Source: Rhizobiales bacterium Y(2018)
GTDB taxonomy: Bacteria; Pseudomonadota; Alphaproteobacteria; Rhizobiales; Aestuariivirgaceae
Length of the DNA stretch: 64,000 nucleotides
Assembly (NCBI GenBank): GCA_005502925.1
Contig: SCPD01000007.1
Location: 124,001-188,000, forward strand
Direction: 5' to 3'
Position 1 is the first letter of the stretch; each line of letters starts with the position of its first letter. The notes beneath the pieces were generated by a model. That model worked only from the letters and a program-made list of their open reading frames with translations. It did not search any database and was not told the origin of the DNA. Shown one piece after another: positions 49,054-63,092 of the stretch. Both the position numbers and the translations under genes were made by a program.

Positions 49054-51414
49054 TTATTCCGCCGCCATCTTCGTGGCCTGCAATGTTTTCCACACCGTAT
49101 GCGGGCTTGCCGGCATCGCCAGGTCCTTGACGCCCAGCGCATCCGTCATCGCATTCATGACGGCGGCCGGCGCCGCGATCGCACCCGCTTCGCCGCAGCC
49201 CTTCATGCCCAGCGGATTCGATGGGCATTTGGTTTCGGTGAAGCCGAGCTTGAAGGACGGCACGTCGGTGGCACGCGGCATGCAGTAGTCCATATAGGAG
49301 CCGGTGAGCAGCTGGCCTGACTCGCTGTCATAGACACAGCCCTCGGTCAGCGCCTGGCCAATGCCCTGCGTGATGCCGCCATGCACCTGGCCTTCGACGA
49401 TCATCGGATTGATGACGGTGCCGAAATCATCGACGGCCGTCCAGCTGACGATCTCGGTGACGCCGGTCTCGCTGTCGATCTCGACCTCGCAGATATGACA
49501 ACCCGCCGGGAAGGTGAAGTTGCTCGGGTCGTAGAACGCCGTTTCCTTCAATCCCGGCTCGATTTCCGAGGTCGGAAACTTATGCGCCACATAAGCCGCC
49601 AGCGCCACTTCGCCGAACGCCATCTTCTTGTCGGTGCCTTTGACCGAGAAGCTGCCGTTCTTGAACTCGATGTCGCCTTCGGCCGCCTCCATCACATGGG
49701 CGGCGATCTTCCTCGCCTTGGCCTCCACCTTGTCGAGCGCCTTGGAGATCGCCGACATTCCGACGGCGCCCGAGCGCGAACCATAGGTGCCCATGCCGAA
49801 CTGCACCTTGTCGGTGTCGCCATGAACGATCGCCACCGAGTTGATGTCGACGCCGAGCCGGTCCGACACGAGCTGGGCGAAGGTCGTCTCATGGCCTTGG
49901 CCGTGGCTATGCGAGCCGGTAAGCACTTCGATCGTGCCGACCGGATTGACCCGGACTTCGGCCGACTCCCACAGGCCCACACCGGCGCCCAGCGAACCGA
50001 CCGCCGCCGACGGCGCGATGCCGCAGGCCTCGATGTAGTTGGCGAAGCCGATGCCGCGCAATTTGCCCTGCTTGGCGGCAGCCGCCTTGCGCGCCGGGAA
50101 GCCTTTGTAGTCGGAGATCTCCAGCGCCTTCTTCAGCGAGGCGTCATAGTCGCCCGCATCATAGGTCATGATGACCGGCGTCTGGTGCGGGAAAGTGGTG
50201 ACGAAATTGCGCCGGCGGAATTCCGCCGGATCGATCTTCATCTCACGCGCCGCCGTCTCGACAATGCGCTCCACCAGATAGGTCGCTTCCGGCCGGCCGG
50301 CGCCGCGATAGGCATCGACGGGCGCGGTATTGGTGTAGATCGCATCCACCTCGGCATAGATCGCCGGAATGGCATATTGGCCGGAGAGCAGCGTGGCATA
50401 GAGATAGGTCGGCACGCAGGAGGCGAAGGTCGACAGATAAGCGCCCATGCTGGCGAGGGTATGGCACTTGAGGCCAAGTATGTGGCCATCCTTGTCCATC
50501 GCCAGCTCGGCATGAGTTACGTGATCGCGGCCATGCGCGTCGGCGAGAAAGCTTTCGGTGCGTTCCGCGGTCCATTTGATCGGCCGGCCGCCGATGCGCT
50601 TCGATGCCCAGACGCAGACGACTTCCTCGGCATAGATGAAGATCTTCGAGCCGAAGCCGCCGCCGACATCGGGGGCGATGACGCGCAGCTTGTGTTCCGG
50701 TGCAAGCCCATGGAAGGCCGAGATGACGAGGCGCGCCACATGCGGGTTCTGGCTTGTCGTATAAAGCGTGTAGTGGTCGCTGCCTGAATCGTAAGAGCCG
50801 ATGGCCGCGCGTGGCTCCATCGCATTGGGGATGAGCCGGTTATTGACAAGGTCGAGCTTGGTCACGTGATGGGCGCGCTGGAAGGCCGCCTCGGTCGCCG
50901 CCTTGTCGCCGAGTGACCATTCGAAGACGGTGTTGTCGGGAGCCACATCGTGGATCTGCGCCTTCGACTTCGTCGCCTTGGCCACGTCGACCACATGCGG
51001 CAGCACGCCATAGGTGACGTCCACCCGGGCGGCGGCGGCTTTGGCCTGCTCTTTGGTTTCGGCGATGACGACGGCGACATGGTCACCGACATAACGCGCC
51101 TTGCCCTGCGCCAGGATCGGATGCGGGCCGGCCTTCATCGGCGAGCCGTCCTTGGAATGGATCATCCAGCCGCAGATGAGGCCGCCGATCTTGTCCTCGG
51201 CCACATGCTCGCCGGTGAACACGGCGACGACGCCGTCCTCCGGCGCCCATTCCGGCTCCTTGATCGACTTGATGGTCGCATGCGCATGCGGGCTGCGCAC
51301 GAAATAGGCGTAGGTCTGGTCTTTCAGATTGATATCATCCGTATACTGACCCTTGCCGGTGATGAAACGGTGATCTTCCTTGCGCTTGACCCGAGCGCCG
51401 ATACCAGTGTCCAT
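49054..51414 (-). CDS. Molybdenum hydroxylase large subunit, form-II CODH-like (CoxL family)
   Basis: A 786-residue molybdopterin-binding subunit. The active-site loop reads AYRGAGR (residues 368-374), the form-II signature, not the AYXCSFR of true (form-I) CO dehydrogenase with its copper-binding cysteine. The catalytic glutamate lies in KGCGEAG near residue 738. Form-II enzymes oxidise aldehydes, purine-like or other heterocycles, and CO oxidation by them is unproved. The start at 51414 has a perfect AGGAGG. Gene order is S-L-M, also typical of form II. Confidence 0.92.
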   Translation of the reverse strand: MDTGIGARVKRKEDHRFITGKGQYTDDINLKDQTYAYFVRSPHAHATIKSIKEPEWAPEDGVVAVFTGEHVAEDKIGGLICGWMIHSKDGSPMKAGPHPILAQGKARYVGDHVAVVIAETKEQAKAAAARVDVTYGVLPHVVDVAKATKSKAQIHDVAPDNTVFEWSLGDKAATEAAFQRAHHVTKLDLVNNRLIPNAMEPRAAIGSYDSGSDHYTLYTTSQNPHVARLVISAFHGLAPEHKLRVIAPDVGGGFGSKIFIYAEEVVCVWASKRIGGRPIKWTAERTESFLADAHGRDHVTHAELAMDKDGHILGLKCHTLASMGAYLSTFASCVPTYLYATLLSGQYAIPAIYAEVDAIYTNTAPVDAYRGAGRPEATYLVERIVETAAREMKIDPAEFRRRNFVTTFPHQTPVIMTYDAGDYDASLKKALEISDYKGFPARKAAAAKQGKLRGIGFANYIEACGIAPSAAVGSLGAGVGLWESAEVRVNPVGTIEVLTGSHSHGQGHETTFAQLVSDRLGVDINSVAIVHGDTDKVQFGMGTYGSRSGAVGMSAISKALDKVEAKARKIAAHVMEAAEGDIEFKNGSFSVKGTDKKMAFGEVALAAYVAHKFPTSEIEPGLKETAFYDPSNFTFPAGCHICEVEIDSETGVTEIVSWTAVDDFGTVINPMIVEGQVHGGITQGIGQALTEGCVYDSESGQLLTGSYMDYCMPRATDVPSFKLGFTETKCPSNPLGMKGCGEAGAIAAPAAVMNAMTDALGVKDLAMPASPHTVWKTLQATKMAAE

Positions 51415-51443
51415 GATCTGTCCTCCTGATTGCTCTGGCTGCG

Positions 51444-51908
<465 letters not shown>

Positions 51909-54561: not shown

Positions 54562-54673
54562 AGCGCGGGATGCGAAAAAGTGGACACCGGTTTTTCGCGA
54601 GAATCCCGCGCTAAAGATCAGAATCGATCACGTTCATGAGTTTGGATTGTTTCAATCCAAACTCATCGTGATC
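54562..54673. repeat. Two-hairpin dispersed repeat between proline dehydrogenase and AraC genes
   Basis: Hairpin A: AGCGCGGGAT (54562-54571) with ATCCCGCGCT (54603-54612), enclosing GCGAAAAA and TTTTTCGC arms. Hairpin B: GATCACG (54626-54632) and CGTGATC (54667-54673) enclose a perfect 13-bp stem, TGAGTTTGGATTG (54637-54649) with CAATCCAAACTCA (54653-54665). The stop codon of the AraC gene lies inside hairpin B. Hairpin A resembles the element at 60115. Confidence 0.8.
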
Positions 54674-55598
54674 TCGCATGGCTCGGCGGCCGGCCATATT
54701 TCTGTTTGAAGGCGCGGGAGAATTCGGCGAGCGTCGAGAAGCCGGTGGCGAGCGCCACGTCGCGCACGCTGAGCCTCGAATAGGTCAGAAGGCGCAGCGC
54801 CCGGTCGAGCCGCAACTGCCGGTAGAAGCCGACCGGCGTCGTCTGCAGATGCTGATGGAACAGCCGCTCGAGCTGGCGGTCGGAAAGCCCCGACGTCGTC
54901 GCCACGTCCTTCAAGGTGAGCTTGTCCTCGACATGCTCCTCCATCAGCCGGATCGCCTTGACGAGGCGCGGGTCGCCGACCCGATAGCGCGTGCCGACCG
55001 GCACCCGCGCCTCGCCCGGATGATTGAGATGGCGCGTGTGGACCAGCGTGTCGGCTACCTTCTGCGCCAGCGCCTCGCTTTCGATCGAGCCCAGCCAGTC
55101 AAGCATCATGTCGAGCGCCGCCGCACCGCCGGAGGCGGTCATGCGGCCGCGGTCAAGCACATAGGTCTCGTCCGCCACATCGATCTCAGGGTAGCTCTCG
55201 CGGAAAGCCGGCAGCGTCTCCCAGTGGCAGGTGGCGCGATAGCCGTCGAGCACACCCGCCCCCGCCAGCAGAAAGGCGCCGGTATCGACGGCACCCAGAA
55301 GCGCGCCATTGCGGGCGAGCCGGCGCAATTCATTGAGCACCGGCCGCACCATGCCGGCCTCGTGCTCATAGGACGCACAGGCGAAGACCACATCCGGCCG
55401 GCCAATCTCCTCGAGGCTCGCCGAGACCGAAACCGGGATGCCGTTGGAGGCGACCACCGCCTCGCCATCCATCGACACGAAGCGCCAGGAGAACACCTCG
55501 CCGGCAAAGCGGTTGGCGACGCGCAAGGGCTCGAGCGCTGAGAACAGCGCGATCATGGAAAAACGCGGAATGAGCAGGAAAGCGATATCGCGGGCCAT
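54663..55598 (-). CDS. GlxA/CdhR-type transcriptional regulator (DJ-1/PfpI + AraC)
   Basis: A 311-residue regulator with an N-terminal class I glutamine-amidotransferase-like domain (about residues 1-175; VFACASYEHEAG, GAVDTGAFLLAGAGVL) and a C-terminal AraC double helix-turn-helix (about 215-310; LKDVATTSGLSDRQLERLF, VRDVALATGFSTLAEFSRAFKQKYGRPP). Pseudomonas CdhR, which activates carnitine dehydrogenase genes, has this architecture. Here it is divergent from carnitine genes across a 95-bp gap, so the same role is likely. The ATG at 55598 gives the usual start; one lies 39 nt upstream. Confidence 0.87.
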   Translation of the reverse strand: MARDIAFLLIPRFSMIALFSALEPLRVANRFAGEVFSWRFVSMDGEAVVASNGIPVSVSASLEEIGRPDVVFACASYEHEAGMVRPVLNELRRLARNGALLGAVDTGAFLLAGAGVLDGYRATCHWETLPAFRESYPEIDVADETYVLDRGRMTASGGAAALDMMLDWLGSIESEALAQKVADTLVHTRHLNHPGEARVPVGTRYRVGDPRLVKAIRLMEEHVEDKLTLKDVATTSGLSDRQLERLFHQHLQTTPVGFYRQLRLDRALRLLTYSRLSVRDVALATGFSTLAEFSRAFKQKYGRPPSHARSR

Positions 55599-55693
55599 GG
55601 CGGCGGTAAATATCAAGCTGATGGCGAAAAAAGTCAAATCCCATCAAAAATCCGACCTTACTCTGCGCCGATCCAATTCCCAGGGAGGACAGA

Positions 55694-56584
55694 ATGAATC
55701 CGAAAGTCATCATCACCTGCGCCGTGACCGGTGCGGGCGACACGGTCGGCAAGCACCCGGCCATCCCGGTAACCCCTGAGCAGATCGCCAATTCGGCGCT
55801 CGAGGCCGCCGATGCCGGTGCCGCCATCGTCCATTGCCATGTGCGTAATCCGAAGACCGGCAAGGGCGCCCGCAATGTCGAGCTCTATGCCGAAGTCGTC
55901 GAGCGTATCCGCGCCAAGAACAAGACCGTGATCATCAACCTCACCGCCGGCATGGGTGGCGATGTCGAGATCGGCCCCGGCGAGACTCCGCGCCAGTTCA
56001 ACGAAGCCAATACCGATCTCGTGGGTCCGGCCGAGCGCCTCCTCCATGTGAAGGAGCTGCGTCCCGAAATCTGCACCCTCGATTGCGGCACGCTCAATTT
56101 CGGCGACGGCAACACCATCGTCGTCCAGACACCGACGCAGTTGCGCGAGCAGGCGAAGCTCATCCAGTCCTATGGCGTCAAGCCCGAGATGGAAATCTTC
56201 GACTCGGGGAACCTGTGGTTCGCCAAGCAGCTCGTCGCCGAAGGCCTCATCGATGAACCGCCGATGTTCCAGCTCTGCCTCGGCATTCCGTGGGGGGCGC
56301 CCGTCAACACCCAGACCATGGCCTATCAGGTCGGCGAATTGCCAAAGAACGCCGTCTGGGCCGCCTTCGGCATCGGCCGCAACCAGTTCCCGATGGTGGC
56401 GCAGGCTGTCCTCCTCGGCGGCCATGTGCGCGTCGGCCTCGAGGACAATCTCTATCTCGAAAAGGGTGTCTATGCCTCGAACGGCACGCTCACCGAACGC
56501 GCCGTGAAGATCATCGAGATCCTCGGCTCCAAGGTCGCCAGCCCCGATGAAGCACGCGACATCCTGAAACTGAAAAAGCGCTGA
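55694..56584 (+). CDS. BKACE (DUF849) beta-keto acid cleavage enzyme, probable 3-dehydrocarnitine cleavage
   Basis: A 296-residue TIM-barrel enzyme. His47 and His49 in IVHCHVRNP are zinc ligands, and [14 protein letters not shown] and [14 protein letters not shown] are conserved later blocks. BKACE enzymes transfer the acyl part of a beta-keto acid to acetyl-CoA. Next to carnitine dehydrogenase the expected reaction is 3-dehydrocarnitine + acetyl-CoA giving betainyl-CoA + acetoacetate. AGGGAGGA precedes the ATG; it is first in the carnitine operon. Confidence 0.86.
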
Positions 56585-56619
56585 AAAAGAAATCGCAAAA
56601 GATTCGAGAGGAAACTTCC

Positions 56620-58155
56620 ATGTCCATCAAGACCGTCGGCATTGCGGGAACGGGTCTCATCGGCGCCGGCTGGGCGGCGCGCCTGCTCATCCGGGGTTAC
56701 GACGTCATCGCCTATGACGTCGTCCCCGACGCCGAAGCCAAGCTCAGGGCCGCCATCGACGTCGCCTGGCCGTCGATGATCCGCCTCCTCAACACCCCCA
56801 AAGTGAAGAAAGGCAGGCTCAGTTTCACCACTGATCTCAAGGAGATGGCGTCCAAAGCTGACTTCATCCATGAAGCCGCCCCCGAACGCGAGGCCCTCAA
56901 GATCAAGCTGTTCAAGGATCTCGACGCGCTGAGCCGTCCGGATGTCATCATCGCCTCTTCTTCGTCGGGCTTCCTGCCCTCCAGGCTCCAGTCCGAATGC
57001 GCCCATCCGGAGCGCGTGATCATCGCGCATCCCTTCAACCCGGTCTATCTGCTGCCGCTCGTCGAGACGGTGCCGGGCGACAAGACCTCATCCGAGGCGA
57101 TGGACCGCGCCGGCAAATATTTCGAGAGCGTCGGCATGCATGTGCTGCGCCTCAAGAAGGAGATCGACGGTTATATCTGCGACCGTCTCCAGGAAGCTCT
57201 GTGGCGCGAGGCGCTGCATGTGCTCGATAAGGATATCGGCACCACCGCTGATATCGATGACTCGATCGTCTATTCGGCCGGCATGCGCTGGGCCTTCATG
57301 GGCTCCTTCCTCACCTATCATGCGGCCGGCGGCCCTGGCGGCATGCGCGCCTTCATCAATCAGTTCGACCCGACGCTCGATCTGCCCTGGACCGATCTCA
57401 AATATCCGAAATGGAATGATGCGCTGGAGAAGCGGCTCGTCGAAGGCTGCGAGGCCCAGGCCGACGGCCAGACCGTCGCCGAGATCGAAGCCAAGCGCAA
57501 CGACGTCCTCGTCGACATGATGCATCTCTTCAAGCAGCACAAGGTCGGCGCGGGCCTCGTGCTGGCGCGCGAGGAAGAGCGCCGCTTGAAGGCGCTGAAG
57601 CGCTGGAAGAAAGGCGCCAAGGTCGGCGGCCCCCTCGCCCTTCACCACGGCACCGTCATGACCTCCTGGGTGGATTACAACAACCACATGCAGGACGCCT
57701 ATTATCTGGTGGCTTTCGGCGACGGGCTCGACGCCTTCTTCCGCTATATCGGCGATGACGAGGCCTATCGTGCGTCAGGGCTGACTTTCTTCACCGCCGA
57801 GACGCATCTCAACTACTATCGCGAGATGAAAGCGGGCGAGCCCTTCACCATCGAAACCCAGCTCGTCGGGCTCGATGAGAAGCGCATGCATCTCTTCCAC
57901 CGCTTGCTGCATGGCAAGACCGGCGAGCTCGTCGCCACCAATGAGATCATGCAGCTGCATGTCGACCAGAAGGCCGGCAAGGTCTCGCCGATGCGCGCCG
58001 ACATCTTCGAGGCACTCTCCGCCGTCTGGGCCGAGCACAGGAAGCTCAAAGCCCCGGCCGAGCTCGGCCGCGTCATGAACGTACCTAAAAAGGCGAAGCC
58101 GGCAGTGAAGAAGAAACCGGCCGTCAAGAAGAAGGCCGCTAAGAAGAAACGCTGA
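56620..58155 (+). CDS. lcdH: L-carnitine dehydrogenase fused to a thioesterase
   Basis: A 511-residue bifunctional protein. Residues 1 to about 320 are a 3-hydroxyacyl-CoA-dehydrogenase-type domain with NAD motif GTGLIGAGW (10-18) and AHPFNPVYLLPLVE. Residues about 340-465 are a hotdog (4HBT) thioesterase with SWVDYNNHMQDAYY. It oxidises L-carnitine to 3-dehydrocarnitine; the thioesterase is expected to hydrolyse betainyl-CoA from the BKACE reaction to glycine betaine. The same fusion is known from Rhizobium. Residues 487-511 form a Lys/Ala/Pro-rich basic tail (PAVKKKPAVKKKAAKKKR) that looks like an add-on. GAGAGGAAAC precedes the ATG. Confidence 0.92.
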   Translation: MSIKTVGIAGTGLIGAGWAARLLIRGYDVIAYDVVPDAEAKLRAAIDVAWPSMIRLLNTPKVKKGRLSFTTDLKEMASKADFIHEAAPEREALKIKLFKDLDALSRPDVIIASSSSGFLPSRLQSECAHPERVIIAHPFNPVYLLPLVETVPGDKTSSEAMDRAGKYFESVGMHVLRLKKEIDGYICDRLQEALWREALHVLDKDIGTTADIDDSIVYSAGMRWAFMGSFLTYHAAGGPGGMRAFINQFDPTLDLPWTDLKYPKWNDALEKRLVEGCEAQADGQTVAEIEAKRNDVLVDMMHLFKQHKVGAGLVLAREEERRLKALKRWKKGAKVGGPLALHHGTVMTSWVDYNNHMQDAYYLVAFGDGLDAFFRYIGDDEAYRASGLTFFTAETHLNYYREMKAGEPFTIETQLVGLDEKRMHLFHRLLHGKTGELVATNEIMQLHVDQKAGKVSPMRADIFEALSAVWAEHRKLKAPAELGRVMNVPKKAKPAVKKKPAVKKKAAKKKR

Positions 58156-58173
58156 TTATCTCGGGAGGAAACC

Positions 58174-58944
58174 ATGCTTCAGCGTGTCATGATCACGGCG
58201 GGCGGCTCCGGCATTGGCTGGGCCATCGCCAGGGCTTTCGCCGACAATGGCGCCAAGGTCCATATTTGCGATGTCGACGAACGGGCGCTGGGTGAGGCGA
58301 CCGAGAAATACCCGCAGATCGCCGCCACCCATCTCGATATCACCGACGAGGAAGCGGTCGACCAGTGGTTCGACGACGCGCTCGACGACATGGATGGCCT
58401 CGACGTGCTCATCAACAATGCCGGCATCAAGGGGCCGACCGGTTATGTCGAGGAGCTGAAGCTCGACGACTGGCGCGAATGCCTGAGCGTCTGTCTCGAT
58501 GCGCAGTTCCTCTGTGCGAGGCGCGCCGCCCCGGTGATGAAGGAGCAGCGTTCCGGCTCGATCATCAACATCTCCTCGACCGCCGGCCTCTATGGTTATG
58601 GCCTCAGGACGCCTTATGCGGCGGCCAAGTGGGCGGTGATCGGCTTCTCGAAGTCGCTCGCCGTCGAGCTCGGCCCTTATGATGTGCGCGTCAACGCCAT
58701 TTGCCCGGGCTCGGTCGAAGGCCCGCGCATGGAGCGTGTCATCAAGGCTGAGGCCGACAGCCGCGGCGTCGCCTTCGACGTCGTCTACAAGGACTATGTC
58801 CAGGCCCAGTCGATCAAGCGTTTCGTCAAGCCGGAGGAGATCGCCGATATGTGCCTCTTCCTGGCCTCGCCCGCATCCAAGATGGTGACCGGCCAGGCGA
58901 TCTCTGTCGACGGCCATTCCGAAACCTTCCACATAGGGAGCTGA
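58174..58944 (+). CDS. SDR family NAD(P)-dependent oxidoreductase
   Basis: A 256-residue short-chain dehydrogenase. The nucleotide loop ITAGGSGIGWAIA lies at residues 7-19, NNAGIKGP near 85, and the catalytic residues are Ser in ISSTAGLYG and the Tyr/Lys of YAAAKWA (about residues 149-153). An Asp in ICDVDERAL after strand 2 favours NAD. It is inside the carnitine operon, 18 nt after carnitine dehydrogenase with its own GGGAGGA, but its substrate is unclear; reduction of acetoacetate or a carnitine-related hydroxy acid is possible. Confidence 0.86.
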   Translation: MLQRVMITAGGSGIGWAIARAFADNGAKVHICDVDERALGEATEKYPQIAATHLDITDEEAVDQWFDDALDDMDGLDVLINNAGIKGPTGYVEELKLDDWRECLSVCLDAQFLCARRAAPVMKEQRSGSIINISSTAGLYGYGLRTPYAAAKWAVIGFSKSLAVELGPYDVRVNAICPGSVEGPRMERVIKAEADSRGVAFDVVYKDYVQAQSIKRFVKPEEIADMCLFLASPASKMVTGQAISVDGHSETFHIGS

Positions 58945-58948
58945 CCCC

Positions 58949-60112
58949 ATGGATTTCGCCCTCACCGACGAACAGCGCATGATCGTCAAGACGACGCGCG
59001 ATTTCGTCGAGAACGAGCTATTCCCGCATGAGGCGGAAGTCGAGCGCACTGGCGAATTGCGCAAGGACCTCTATGAGGAGCTGAAGGCCAAGGCGATCGA
59101 AGCCGGACTCTATGCCGCCAACATGCCCGAGGAAGCGGGCGGCGCCGGTCTCGATACCCAGACCTGGGTCATGTATGAGCGCGAGCTCGGCCGCGCCAAT
59201 TACGCGCTGCATTGGAACTGCGTGGCGCGCCCGTCGAACATCCTGATGGCGTGCGAAGGCGAGCAACGCGAGAAATATCTCTTCCCCGCGGTGCGCGGCG
59301 AGAAGTCCGACTGCCTCGCCATGACCGAGCCGGGTGCGGGCTCGGATGTCCGCGGCATGAAATGCGCCGCTGTCCAGCAAGGCGATGATTTCGTCATCAA
59401 TGGCGTGAAGCATTTCATCAGCCATGCCGATGTCGCCGATTTCGTCATCCTCTTCGCCGCCTCGGGCGAGGAGAACACGCCGCGCGGCAAGAAGAAGCTC
59501 ATCACCGCCTTCCTGGTCGACAAGGGTCATCCGGGCTTCGTGGTGCGCGACGGCTACCGCAATGTCTCGCATCGCGGCTACAACAACTGCATCCTCGAAT
59601 TCACCGATTGCCGCCTGCCCAAATCGGCTGTGCTGGGCGAAGTGCATAAGGGTTTCGAGGTCGCCAATTCCTGGCTCGGCGCCACCCGCCTCCAGGTCGC
59701 CGCCACCTGTATCGGCCGCGCCGAGCGCGCGCTGGAGCACGCCAAGCAATGGGCGGTCGACCGCGTTCAATTCGGCCAGCAGATCGGCAAGTTCCAGGGC
59801 GTCTCCTTCAAGCTCGCCGACATGGCGCTCGAATTCAAGGCGGCCTGGCTCCTCACCCTTGAGGCGGCCTGGAAATACGACCAGGGCACGGTCGAGGACA
59901 TGGACATGGCAATGGCCAAGCTCAAGGCCACCGAGATGCTGGCCATGGTCGCCGACGAGGCCATCCAGATCCATGGCGGCATGGGCGTGATGGAGGAATT
60001 GCCGCTCGAGCGCATCTGGCGCGACGCCCGCATCGAGCGCATCTGGGAAGGCACCAGCGAGATCCAGCGCCACATCATTTCGCGGTCGCTGCTGCGGCCG
60101 CTCGGCGGCTAA
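58949..60112 (+). CDS. Acyl-CoA dehydrogenase, candidate gamma-butyrobetainyl-/crotonobetainyl-CoA oxidoreductase
   Basis: A 387-residue flavoprotein. CLAMTEPGAGSDVRGMK binds FAD and substrate, GRAERALEHAKQWAVDRVQFGQQIGKFQG is typical of the central region, and the usual C-terminal IQIHGGMGVMEELPLERIWRDARI and IWEGTSEIQRHII blocks are present. With a CaiD-type hydratase and a CoA ligase in the same operon it may be the CaiA-like enzyme converting gamma-butyrobetainyl-CoA to crotonobetainyl-CoA. A short-chain fatty acyl role cannot be excluded. It lies 4 nt after the SDR. Confidence 0.84.
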   Translation: MDFALTDEQRMIVKTTRDFVENELFPHEAEVERTGELRKDLYEELKAKAIEAGLYAANMPEEAGGAGLDTQTWVMYERELGRANYALHWNCVARPSNILMACEGEQREKYLFPAVRGEKSDCLAMTEPGAGSDVRGMKCAAVQQGDDFVINGVKHFISHADVADFVILFAASGEENTPRGKKKLITAFLVDKGHPGFVVRDGYRNVSHRGYNNCILEFTDCRLPKSAVLGEVHKGFEVANSWLGATRLQVAATCIGRAERALEHAKQWAVDRVQFGQQIGKFQGVSFKLADMALEFKAAWLLTLEAAWKYDQGTVEDMDMAMAKLKATEMLAMVADEAIQIHGGMGVMEELPLERIWRDARIERIWEGTSEIQRHIISRSLLRPLGG

Positions 60113-60114
60113 GG

Positions 60115-60157
60115 CATCGGGCCGAAAAGTGCGAAGCGGTTTTCGGATAACCCGATG
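60115..60157. repeat. Dispersed hairpin repeat inside the carnitine operon
   Basis: CATCGGG (60115-60121) pairs with CCCGATG (60151-60157) and CCGAAAA (60122-60128) with TTTTCGG (60140-60146), forming a 14-bp stem with an internal offset. The GAAAAGTGcgaaGCGGTTTTC core resembles the hairpin at 54562. It lies just after the acyl-CoA dehydrogenase stop and could stabilise or attenuate the operon mRNA. Confidence 0.75.
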
Positions 60158-60254
60158 ACCTAACAACGGAACGGAGGAGCTGTTCCCCCCGCCTCTGGCG
60201 GCTTGCCCGGATAAGGGGCGGGGGTCGAGCGGTTCGTCCAAGAAGCGAAGCATC

Positions 60255-62306
60255 ATGACAACATCTCTCACCCGCCTGCTCTCGCCCGCATCCATCGCCT
60301 TCATTGGCGGTCATGAATGCGACGTCGCCATCAAGCGCACGCTTGCCTTGGGCTTCACCGGTAAGATCTGGGCCGTCCACCCCAAACGTGAGCAACTGGG
60401 CGGCATTGCCTGCATCCGCTCGGTCGAGGAGATCGACGGCGTGCCGGATGCGGCCTTCGTCGCCGTCAAGCGCGAGCCCACCATCGAGATCGTCCGCCAT
60501 CTGAACAATATCGGCTGCGGCGGCGCCGTCATCTATGCCTCGGGCTTTTCCGAGACGGGCGAGACCGGCAAGGAATTGCAGCGCCAGCTCCTCGACGCGG
60601 CGGACGGCATGCCGCTGATGGGTCCCAATTGCTATGGCTTCGTCAATGCTTTGGCCCATGCCGCTCTGTGGCCGGACGAACACGGCCTGTCACACCTCGA
60701 GCGCGGCGTCGCCATCATCACCCAGTCCGGCAACATCGCCTGCAACTTCACCATGACGCGCCGCGCGCTTCCCGTGGCCGCCGTCTTCGCCATCGGCAAC
60801 CAGGCCGATGTCGACATCGCCCGTATGCTCGAGGCCTTGTCCGAGGATGAGCGCATCACCGCAATCGGCCTTCACATCGAAGGGCTCAAGGATATTCCAG
60901 CTTTCGCCAGGGCCGCCGAGGTCGCGCGAAAGAACCGCAAGCCCGTGGTAGCCTTGAAGACCGGCCGTTCCGAGCAAGGCGCCAAGGTGGCAATGAGCCA
61001 TACGTCCTCGCTCGCCGGCGCCGACACGCTGTATGACGCGCTCTTCGAACGGTGCGGCGTCGCCCGCATGACCTCGGTGACCGCTTTTGTCGAGACGCTC
61101 AAATTCCTCCACAATGGCGGCCCGCTCAAGGACAACCGTCTCGTTTCGATGAGCTGCTCGGGTGGCGAAGCCGCGCTTATCGCCGACATGGCGATGGGCA
61201 AGAAGGTGAGCTTCCCTGAATTCGATTCCCGCACCAAGCCGAAAGTGGCGGCGACGCTCAATGAATATGTGTCGATCGACAATCCGCTCGATTACCACAC
61301 CTTCATCTGGAACCAGGAAGACAAGCTCACCGCCACTTTCTCGGCGGTGCTCGCCGGCGGTTTCGATGTGTCGATGCTGATCCTCGACGTGCCCACCAAT
61401 CCGGCGATGAAACCCGATGGCTGGCTCACCACGGCGCGTGCGCTGCGCTCCGCCGCGCAGGCGACCAAGGCCCGCGCCGCGATGGTGGCGAGCCTGCCCG
61501 AGTGCCTGCCCTTGCCATTGGCCGAGGAAATGGCCGCCGCCGGCGTCGCCCCGATGATGGGGCTCGATGATGCGCTGACCGCTTTCGAGGCGGCGGCCTT
61601 CATCGGCCGCAACTGGGCGCGCCGCGACAAGGTCCCGGCCCTCGTTGCGACCACTGAACGCGGCGGTCAGCTGACGACGCTCACCGAATATGACGCCAAG
61701 CAGCTTCTGAAGAGCTTTGGCCTCAGCGTGCCGGAAGGCATCGTCTGCAAGACCGGCGATGCGGTGAACGCGGCGGAGAAACTCGACTTTCCCGTCACGC
61801 TCAAGGTCTCCTCCGCCGCGATCGCGCATAAGACGGAAGCTGGCGGCGTGGCGCTCAATCTCAAGAGCGCGCATGAGGTCGCGGTGGCGGTTGAGCGCAT
61901 GACCAGACTTGCGGATGAAGTCATCGTCGAGCGCATGGTGACGGGCGCTGTCGCCGAGCTGATCGTCGGTCTCAAATCCGATCCGCAATTCGGTCTGGCG
62001 CTGGTGCTCGGCGCCGGCGGCATTCTCACCGAGCTGCTCAAAGATTCGGCAACACTCATTCTGCCGGCGTCGCGGCCTGAGATCGAACGCGCGCTCAAGT
62101 CGTTGAAAGTATGGAAGCTCGTCGAAGGCTTCCGTAACAAGTCGGGGGATCAGGAGGGTGTGATCAGGGCGGTCGAGGCAATTGCAGGCTTTGCCGAGGC
62201 GCATCGGGGCCTTATAGAGGAGCTCGATGTCAATCCCCTGCTCGTCCTGCCTCCAGGTCAAGGTGCCGTGGCGGTCGATGCCCTCATCGCAATGCGCAAA
62301 GGTTAG
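60255..62306 (+). CDS. NDP-forming acyl-CoA synthetase (acetate-CoA ligase family)
   Basis: A 683-residue protein with the fused architecture of ADP-forming acyl-CoA synthetases: CoA-binding Rossmann domain (about residues 1-125; LSPASIAFIGGHECDVAIK), succinyl-CoA-ligase-like domains (about 150-460; GVAIITQSGNIACNFT, and a candidate phosphohistidine in MSHTSSLAG) and a C-terminal ATP-grasp domain (about 470-683; YDAKQLLKSFGLSVPEG, SSAAIAHKTEAGGVALNL). It would activate an acid with CoA using ATP (ADP + Pi). In this operon the acid is probably a betaine such as gamma-butyrobetaine, carnitine or crotonobetaine. It follows a 142-nt gap containing a hairpin repeat. Confidence 0.86.
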   Translation: MTTSLTRLLSPASIAFIGGHECDVAIKRTLALGFTGKIWAVHPKREQLGGIACIRSVEEIDGVPDAAFVAVKREPTIEIVRHLNNIGCGGAVIYASGFSETGETGKELQRQLLDAADGMPLMGPNCYGFVNALAHAALWPDEHGLSHLERGVAIITQSGNIACNFTMTRRALPVAAVFAIGNQADVDIARMLEALSEDERITAIGLHIEGLKDIPAFARAAEVARKNRKPVVALKTGRSEQGAKVAMSHTSSLAGADTLYDALFERCGVARMTSVTAFVETLKFLHNGGPLKDNRLVSMSCSGGEAALIADMAMGKKVSFPEFDSRTKPKVAATLNEYVSIDNPLDYHTFIWNQEDKLTATFSAVLAGGFDVSMLILDVPTNPAMKPDGWLTTARALRSAAQATKARAAMVASLPECLPLPLAEEMAAAGVAPMMGLDDALTAFEAAAFIGRNWARRDKVPALVATTERGGQLTTLTEYDAKQLLKSFGLSVPEGIVCKTGDAVNAAEKLDFPVTLKVSSAAIAHKTEAGGVALNLKSAHEVAVAVERMTRLADEVIVERMVTGAVAELIVGLKSDPQFGLALVLGAGGILTELLKDSATLILPASRPEIERALKSLKVWKLVEGFRNKSGDQEGVIRAVEAIAGFAEAHRGLIEELDVNPLLVLPPGQGAVAVDALIAMRKG

Positions 62307-62309
62307 CTC

Positions 62310-63092
62310 ATGTCGTCACCTCTCATTGTCGAACGCCGCGGCAAGGTCCTCGAAGTCACCATCAACCGGCCCAAGGCCAACGCCATCGACGCGCCGACGA
62401 GCCGCATCATGGGCGAGACCTTCGCCAAATTCCGCGACGACCCCGAATTGCGCGTGGCTATTCTCACCGGCTCGGGCGAGAAATTCTTCTGCCCCGGCTG
62501 GGATCTGAAAGCCGCGGCGGAAGGCGAAGCGCCCGATTCCGATTATGGCGTCGGTGGTTTCGGCGGCCTGCAGGAATTGCCCGGCCTCAACAAGCCGGTG
62601 ATCGCCGCGATCAACGGCATCGCCTTCGGCGGCGGCTTCGAGATCATGATCTCGGCCGACATCATCATCGCCGCCGACCACGCCACTTTCGCCCTACCGG
62701 AAATCAACTCCGGCACACTCGCCGACGCGGCCACCATAAAATTGCCACGCCGTATTCCCTACCATGTCGCCATGGAGCTTCTCTTCACCGGACGGCGCAT
62801 GGATGCCCACGAAGCCAAGCAATGGGGCATCGTGAACGAGATCGTGACGCAGCCCAATCTGATGATCCGCGCCCGCGAAGTCGCCGCCATGCTGGCCGAC
62901 GGCCCGCCGCTGGTCTTCGCCGCCATCAAGGAAACGGTGCGCGAGACCGAGCGCCTCACCGTCCAGGAAGCCTTCGACCTCGTCACCAAGCGCAAGCTCA
63001 AGACGGTCGACACGCTCTATGCGAGCGACGACCAGAAGGAAGGCGCCCGCGCCTTCGCCGAGAAGCGCAAGCCGGTGTGGAAAGGCCGCTAG
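62310..63092 (+). CDS. caiD: Crotonobetainyl-CoA hydratase/carnitinyl-CoA dehydratase (CaiD)
   Basis: A 260-residue crotonase-fold enzyme very similar in my reading to E. coli CaiD: RPKANAIDAPTSRIMGE, FFCPGWDLKAAAEGEAPDSD, AFGGGFEI (oxyanion hole), TGRRMDAHEAKQWGIVNEIV, and the identical ending AFAEKRKPVWKGR. It interconverts L-carnitinyl-CoA and crotonobetainyl-CoA. It lies 3 nt after the acyl-CoA synthetase gene and is the last enzyme gene of the carnitine operon. Confidence 0.92.
   Translation: MSSPLIVERRGKVLEVTINRPKANAIDAPTSRIMGETFAKFRDDPELRVAILTGSGEKFFCPGWDLKAAAEGEAPDSDYGVGGFGGLQELPGLNKPVIAAINGIAFGGGFEIMISADIIIAADHATFALPEINSGTLADAATIKLPRRIPYHVAMELLFTGRRMDAHEAKQWGIVNEIVTQPNLMIRAREVAAMLADGPPLVFAAIKETVRETERLTVQEAFDLVTKRKLKTVDTLYASDDQKEGARAFAEKRKPVWKGR

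Follow-up and report, generated by a model that had tools for sequence, protein, structure and literature searches.

A gene cluster of rhizobial type for the probable conversion of gamma-butyrobetaine through carnitine to glycine betaine in a Rhizobiales bacterium, with an NDP-forming acyl-CoA ligase

Introduction

The locus described here raises the question of whether one gene cluster could take gamma-butyrobetaine all the way to glycine betaine, and whether such a cluster would be unusual. An earlier note on this DNA had proposed the full route from a carnitine dehydrogenase pair and a set of CoA-thioester genes lying behind one regulator, and had regarded the two as usually described from different organisms. 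The window, i.e. the whole 64,000-nucleotide stretch that was analysed, is part of contig SCPD01000007.1 of Rhizobiales bacterium Y(2018), whose genome amounts to 7.1 Mb. We find that the cluster is probably a rhizobial-type catabolic operon for carnitine and gamma-butyrobetaine, in which gamma-butyrobetaine would pass through CoA esters to carnitine and from there to glycine betaine. This remains the best reading of the genes, given a hydratase with 55.9 % identity to CaiD and orthologues in Sinorhizobium meliloti. The combination itself is not new.

Gene content and layout of the locus

Open reading frames and Pfam domains agreed with the gene coordinates given previously, and all genes listed at that time were present; an SDR dehydrogenase gene at 58174–58944 had been missed. 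The features of the locus are as follows.

54663..55637, minus strand, divergent: GlxA/CdhR-like AraC-family regulator, with DJ-1_PfpI and AraC/HTH_18 domains (Pfam)
55623..55638, plus strand: conserved intergenic box GGCGAAAAAAGTCAAA, candidate operator or regulator promoter
55694..56584, plus strand: BKACE (PF05853, 331.8 bits)
56620..58155, plus strand: L-carnitine 3-dehydrogenase (LcdH) fused to a 4HBT_2 thioesterase, with 3HCDH_N and 4HBT_2 domains (Pfam)
58174..58944, plus strand: SDR dehydrogenase, adh_short_C2 (Pfam)
58949..60112, plus strand: acyl-CoA dehydrogenase (ACAD), predicted gamma-butyrobetainyl-CoA dehydrogenase, with Acyl-CoA_dh domains
60122..60146, plus strand: REP-like palindrome CCGAAAAGTGCGAAGCGGTTTTCGG, in the gap between the ACAD and ligase genes
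60255..62306, plus strand: NDP-forming acyl-CoA synthetase, predicted gamma-butyrobetaine/carnitine-CoA ligase, with CoA_binding_2, Succ_CoA_lig and ATP-grasp_5 domains
62310..63092, plus strand: CaiD-like crotonobetainyl-CoA hydratase (ECH), from its enoyl-CoA hydratase domain and identity to CaiD

Successive plus-strand genes from BKACE to ECH are separated by 35, 18, 4, 142 and 3 bases, and this short spacing makes an operon likely, with co-transcription predicted. The 142-bp gap (60113–60254) splits ACAD from the ligase gene and contains the palindrome, of which 27 exact and 5 one-mismatch copies occur genome-wide; the reversed-pattern control gave none. In the consensus scan neither promoters (1 against an expected 2.4) nor terminators (9 against an expected 8.7) were in excess. 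No transporter adjoins the carnitine cluster in the window by open reading frames and Pfam, and no BCCT match was found in the window's genome. The rhizobial binding protein had 47 matches in that genome, among which a carnitine transporter cannot be singled out. Upstream, at 49054–51908, open reading frame translations, the sole source here, contain genes resembling molybdenum hydroxylase (CO/xanthine dehydrogenase-like) subunits.

Carnitine dehydrogenase and BKACE

The LcdH-thioesterase fusion scored 502.6 bits against the carnitine 3-dehydrogenase equivalog of NCBIfam (NF005716) and did not reach its cut-off of 592; the score against the L-carnitine dehydrogenase equivalog was 353.7 bits, below the cut-off of 414. 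It was the best match to NF005716 in the window's genome, where the next scored 194 bits, and the only match there covering both LcdH and thioesterase. Because the NCBIfam equivalog cut-offs were missed, the gene names rest on orthology and context, and direct sequence comparison is better evidence for them than the equivalog scores. The fusion was about 42 % identical to that of S. meliloti across both domains, and BKACE shared 56 % identity with its S. meliloti counterpart. Ser113, His137 and Glu149 of LcdH were kept in all 85 aligned sequences and the HxH and ED residues of BKACE in all 65, residues that we take to have functional roles. As judged by sequence comparison, LcdH-thioesterase and BKACE are orthologues of the S. 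meliloti pair. The available part of one study describes S. meliloti SM2011_c01638 as oxidizing carnitine and turning betainyl-CoA into glycine betaine (PMC12482172). This gene is taken to be the LcdH-thioesterase gene of S. meliloti Ak57 (L105), whose record has a single LcdH place.

Instead of carnitine, the cluster might act on an analogue close to it, another onium compound or a beta-hydroxy acid. Proteins of the BKACE and 3HCDH kinds take a wide range of beta-keto and beta-hydroxy acids, and the window's genome has a separate cluster (L115, C22:530000–543000) in which BKACE stands with a 3HCDH dehydrogenase, SMP-30 lactonase-type open reading frames, an ABC permease and an SDR that shares about 50 % identity with the one described here. 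This second cluster, together with the 8 BKACE matches in the genome as a whole, suggests that the family probably serves several substrates, and in comparison with the rhizobial, Kiloniella and other groups the window's LcdH reached just 40–49 % identity. BKACE, LcdH-thioesterase, ACAD, ligase and ECH nevertheless match the S. meliloti carnitine genes jointly and in the same order, and we consider an analogue as the true substrate unlikely. Carnitine is retained as the predicted substrate below.

Hydratase, acyl-CoA dehydrogenase and SDR

The ECH was 55.9 % identical to Escherichia coli CaiD over its whole length and 68 % identical to its S. meliloti counterpart. Glu111 and Glu131, presumably the catalytic glutamates of CaiD-type hydratases, were kept in all 51 aligned sequences, and with both residues and the full-length alignment the protein falls among hydratases of this type. 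Its score against the crotonobetainyl-CoA hydratase equivalog NF002936 (NCBIfam) was 341.5 bits, short of the cut-off of 500. The ACAD shared 66 % identity with its S. meliloti counterpart and 32 % with E. coli CaiA. At its base position, Glu367, the 64 aligned sequences had Glu (35) or Asp (29), whereas CaiA has Gly. The SDR residues S135, Y148 and K152 were found in 38 of 38 aligned sequences, and SDR matches of at least 150 bits in 35 of the best 80 of 168 loci, some of them non-adjacent. Its role can be predicted only loosely, a D-carnitine dehydrogenase being one guess.

With homologues of CaiD and of an acyl-CoA dehydrogenase present, the upper genes might be thought to work reductively, forming gamma-butyrobetaine from carnitine like the cai genes of E. 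coli. We consider this highly improbable. Neither CaiB CoA-transferase nor CaiC AMP-forming ligase domains were found in the window's cluster by Pfam, which places it outside the E. coli cai type; the acidic base position of the ACAD is kept; and the catabolic LcdH and BKACE lie in the same run of genes.

An NDP-forming ligase with a conserved tryptophan set

The CoA ligase named in the earlier note was recovered, as an NDP-forming enzyme with a DddX-like fold and not a CaiC-like one. Its domain set of CoA_binding_2, Succ_CoA_lig and ATP-grasp_5 with a phospho-His fits an NDP-forming acyl-CoA synthetase and the fold agrees; an AMP-binding, CaiC-like ligase was rejected on these domains. Compared as two pieces, it was 46–47 % identical to the S. 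meliloti counterpart. Among open-licence PMC titles and abstract starts, no paper was found that gives this NDP-forming ligase an assignment. The present analysis offers a concrete and testable assignment for this carnitine-operon ligase, which is named 'acetate--CoA ligase family protein' in one rhizobial record.

In an alignment of 58 ligases, His249 and Trp352 were found in all 58 and Trp139 and Trp390 in 57. Recruitment without LcdH gave 10 orthologues, all of them with W139 and W352 and 7 with W390. All three Trp together occurred in none of 13 ligase paralogues, a control made up of 12 from 53 listed weaker matches and one from another search. In the 58-ligase MAFFT alignment Trp139, Trp352 and Trp390 occupy the columns of DddX Y181, W391 and F435, an alignment-dependent placement: HMMER mapping agreed on Y181–W139 and W391–W352 and was off by one for F435–W390, and in the paralogue alignment the DddX row was shifted, with no match at the Trp columns. 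According to the available part of the structural source, the sulfonium ligand of DddX was placed by docking and not crystallised (PDB 7cm9; PMC8163506). The fold search gave DddX no preference over other NDP-forming synthetases.

The window's ligase and the DMSP lyase DddX share the fold, the phospho-His and aromatic residues at the onium site. They differ at the DddX lyase base Glu432, which is absent from the window's ligase and replaced by Pro387 in this alignment-dependent comparison. The same column in the 58 ligases held Pro (27), Ser (13), Ala (8), Asp (5), Trp (2) and Thr, Glu and Met (1 each). Replacement of the lyase base predicts ligation without elimination. As far as the alignments place these residues, the clade-specific Trp set at the DddX sulfonium-binding positions, together with the kept phospho-His and the missing lyase base, is a new observation.

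NDP-forming ligases are reversible, so the ligase could also free carnitine from carnitinyl-CoA with a gain of ATP. It is possible, although we regard it as rather doubtful, that this NDP-forming acyl-CoA synthetase is onium-specific and has a Trp cage, as a non-lyase sister of DddX that would spend ATP on gamma-butyrobetaine and regain it from carnitinyl-CoA. In relatives without a thioesterase domain, such a two-way ligase would perhaps unload betainyl-CoA as well. If this were true, the upper pathway would be almost ATP-neutral, and it would be explained how 24 related loci manage without an LcdH-fused thioesterase.

Release of the CoA thioesters

Two thioesters must be opened along the predicted route, those of carnitinyl-CoA and betainyl-CoA. 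The fused thioesterase had previously been named as one possible source of the carnitinyl-CoA step; betainyl-CoA is the likelier substrate, and by analogy with S. meliloti, as described in the available part of PMC12482172, the domain most likely acts there. Thioesterase number varied among the best 80 of 168 relatives. The window and the rhizobia have a single thioesterase, the one fused to LcdH. The fused domain with a second thioesterase directly downstream was found in 14 contigs labelled Actinomycetota (L064–L066, L069–L077, L079 and L082), some species labels of which are doubtful, e.g. Bifidobacterium breve and Ferrithrix. LcdH lacked the fused thioesterase in 24 loci (L021–L042, L047 and L056), where the next gene match begins 4–264 bases past the LcdH match. 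Of these 24, 23 fall into one group (100/96) of the LcdH tree, within the larger clade of the window, and a single well-supported group makes one thioesterase loss likely there, with L056 as a separate case. Loss was rejected for a further locus, L020 (G001), because another contig opens with a thioesterase piece (81 %), indicating a contig-end artefact.

The search for a replacement thioesterase covered 25 genomes, of which G001 was then set aside, leaving 24. Of these, 23 had an unlinked thioesterase homologue with 30–37 % identity, partial in G003, and none was found elsewhere in the genome of G011 (L030). The window's own genome has the same unlinked gene (66 %), which is therefore not a dedicated replacement, though still a possible one. 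As a homologue, it could be a plain alternative to a reversed ligase for the loci without the domain. In Aestuariivirga litoralis this gene adjoins an AsmA-like gene and a UvrD helicase; at L113 its tested neighbour was an FAD oxidase. Genes inserted in four of the domain-less loci were rejected as thioesterases, being a GNAT (L031), copper amine oxidases (L033 and L041) and a sulfatase (L022). The copper amine oxidase genes lie between ACAD and ligase (L033:12888–14828 and L041:13075–15015) and, as a guess, might supply trimethylaminobutyraldehyde-type substrates. Loci with two, one or no thioesterases form a natural series for studying CoA-ester release.

Conservation of the cluster in other genomes

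A search for the same gene order in relatives, as suggested in the earlier note, was carried out as a scan of named genomes in which the best 80 of 168 were kept as loci and order was determined by tblastn. Only the 46 fully flanked loci were counted, the other 34 being cut by contig ends. BKACE, ACAD, ligase and ECH were all present around LcdH in 36 of the 46; the other 10 comprised 2 short only of a BKACE match above threshold, 6 with BKACE and without the upper genes, 1 with ACAD alone and 1 with none of the four within the span. On this count the gene order is beyond chance. The closest LcdH sequences among the 80 included those of Aestuariivirga sp. YIM B02566 (98 % identical) and Taklimakanibacter lacteus (91 %), which suggests that the source organism belongs to the Aestuariivirgaceae or is closely related to them.

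The annotated locus of Rhizobium leguminosarum 248 (L106) reads regulator, BKACE, LcdH, ACAD, ligase and CaiD, followed by an ABC transporter, and S. meliloti Ak57 has the same order with the ABC transporter after it. The Ak57 gene table omits the ligase, which comparison finds in two pieces between ACAD and caiD; the gene is split over two reading frames (L105:15061–17150), through a sequencing error or as a pseudogene. The Ak57 record is labelled pSymB though it is 3.7 Mb long. Because this order is shared by S. meliloti and R. leguminosarum, the presumed separation of the two routes between organisms is not supported and the novelty of their combination fails; judging from these records, well-known rhizobia also have the cluster. 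Kiloniella, Metarhizobium and Acidimicrobiia-type contigs shared the order as well, and Paracoccus alcaliphilus and Novosphingobium capsulatum had the lower part only, within the stretches compared. The LcdH tree places two loci, labelled Candidatus Planktophila (L054) and Gammaproteobacteria (L019), within the clade of the window, which consists mostly of Hyphomicrobiales; both are probably mis-binned. The combined cluster is accordingly no one-off; it is a standing shared unit that spans Alphaproteobacteria and contigs labelled Gammaproteobacteria and Actinomycetota.

Co-occurrence was determined in 142 genomes spread evenly across the class, the window's own included, with cut-offs of at least 440 bits for the ligase and at least 360 bits for LcdH that were set after viewing the lists. 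The orthologous ligase was present in 10 genomes and LcdH in 16. LcdH occurred in 9 of the 10 genomes with the ligase and in 7 of the 132 without it (Fisher p = 2e-9), or in 8 of 9 against 7 of 132 when the window's genome was removed (p = 2e-8). Weaker ligase paralogues alone showed no such link in this sample (3/24 versus 12/117, p = 0.49). Ligase and LcdH were linked in 5 of the 9 genomes having both and apart in 4, on different contigs in G073, G121 and G047 and about 22 kb from each other on a single contig in G062.

These 4 separated pairs could indicate two neighbouring co-regulated modules with separate substrates, LcdH-thioesterase and BKACE for carnitine and the ligase, ACAD and ECH, together with the SDR, for another short acid or betaine. 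A regulator homologue lies by the upper module in two of those genomes (L128 and L129), which would fit such an arrangement, as would the missed NCBIfam cut-offs. Weighing on the other side are the CaiD-like identity of the ECH, the ligase Trp set at the DddX onium positions and the presence of LcdH in nearly every genome with the orthologous ligase. Two separate modules are thus quite unlikely in our view, and the genes are treated below as one pathway.

Regulator and control region

The regulator was confirmed as CdhR-like: it is divergent, and its DJ-1_PfpI and HTH_18 domains give the CdhR/GbdR layout of a GATase-1-like domain with an AraC HTH. Its listed start is TTG; judged by the sequence, the gene more probably starts with the ATG at 55598 (reverse strand). 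GbdR (NF052371) was its best NCBIfam model at 270.1 bits, below the cut-off of 480.

With up to 3 mismatches allowed, the box GGCGAAAAAAGTCAAA occurred in 24 of the 35 upstream regions, the window included, against a shuffled mean of 0.04, the pattern having been derived from the same loci as were scored. In carrying loci it lies 46–67 bases ahead of the BKACE start. It was present in 23 of 26 loci with an adjacent regulator and in 1 of 9 without (p = 6e-5), these being related and not independent loci. The box overlaps the regulator's own -35-like TTGACT. In Pseudomonas aeruginosa, the CdhR site consists of GGTCGC half-sites with a 15-bp spacer, according to the available part of PMC5806209; an exact GGTCGC was absent within 55501–55760.

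Predicted pathway

Homology of the genes, their conserved order and their conserved catalytic residues are direct observations, from which substrates and direction of flux are predicted. The NDP-forming ligase would make gamma-butyrobetainyl-CoA via a phospho-histidine, the ACAD would convert it to crotonobetainyl-CoA, and the CaiD-like hydratase would add water to give L-carnitinyl-CoA. Carnitine would be released by the ligase in reverse, by a thioesterase, or by both. The LcdH domain would then oxidize L-carnitine to 3-dehydrocarnitine, from which BKACE, with acetyl-CoA, is expected to form betainyl-CoA and acetoacetate, and the fused thioesterase would yield glycine betaine. Free carnitine and crotonobetaine could join part-way, and the divergent GlxA/CdhR-like regulator is predicted to control the operon. 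Several observations count against this operon reading, namely the missed equivalog cut-offs, the low identity of ACAD to CaiA, and the lack of an adjacent transporter and of BCCT; so do the 142-bp gap with its repeat, the missing CdhR half-site, the lack of a promoter excess and the separation of ligase and LcdH in some genomes.

Comparison with known systems

Among characterized systems, the E. coli caiTABCDE operon shares CaiD and a distant CaiA with the window, which differs in having an NDP-forming ligase, LcdH and BKACE; for the window, aerobic catabolism is inferred. The caiX-cdhCAB-hocS genes of P. aeruginosa with CdhR resemble the window in leading from carnitine to glycine betaine under a divergent GATase-1/AraC regulator (PMC5806209); unlike the window, no CoA-ester upper module is named in the available part of that source. 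In an Arctic SAR11 island, according to the available part of PMC12421898, carnitine dehydrogenase and BKACE are instead accompanied by genes for gamma-butyrobetaine dioxygenase.

For the industrial strain HK4 (Lonza), 'close to Rhizobium meliloti', the available part of PMC2131755 describes growth on L-carnitine as well as formation of L-carnitine from gamma-butyrobetaine, the latter along a route 'analogous but not identical to fatty acid degradation'; mutant HK13 lacks L-carnitine dehydrogenase. This physiology means that the combined pathway was already known and that the window is a further member. The closest likeness is to the rhizobial carnitine operon, as the window has BKACE and an adjoining LcdH-thioesterase fusion, both behind a divergent GlxA-type regulator, and the order ACAD, NDP-forming ligase and CaiD, with the SDR between LcdH-thioesterase and ACAD. 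In S. meliloti, gamma-butyrobetaine and trimethyllysine have reportedly been tied to carnitine metabolism. The carnitine locus of S. meliloti and R. leguminosarum matches the window in gene content, order and divergent regulator; the window differs in its added SDR and in having no ABC transporter after the cluster, whereas the rhizobial copies are followed by one.
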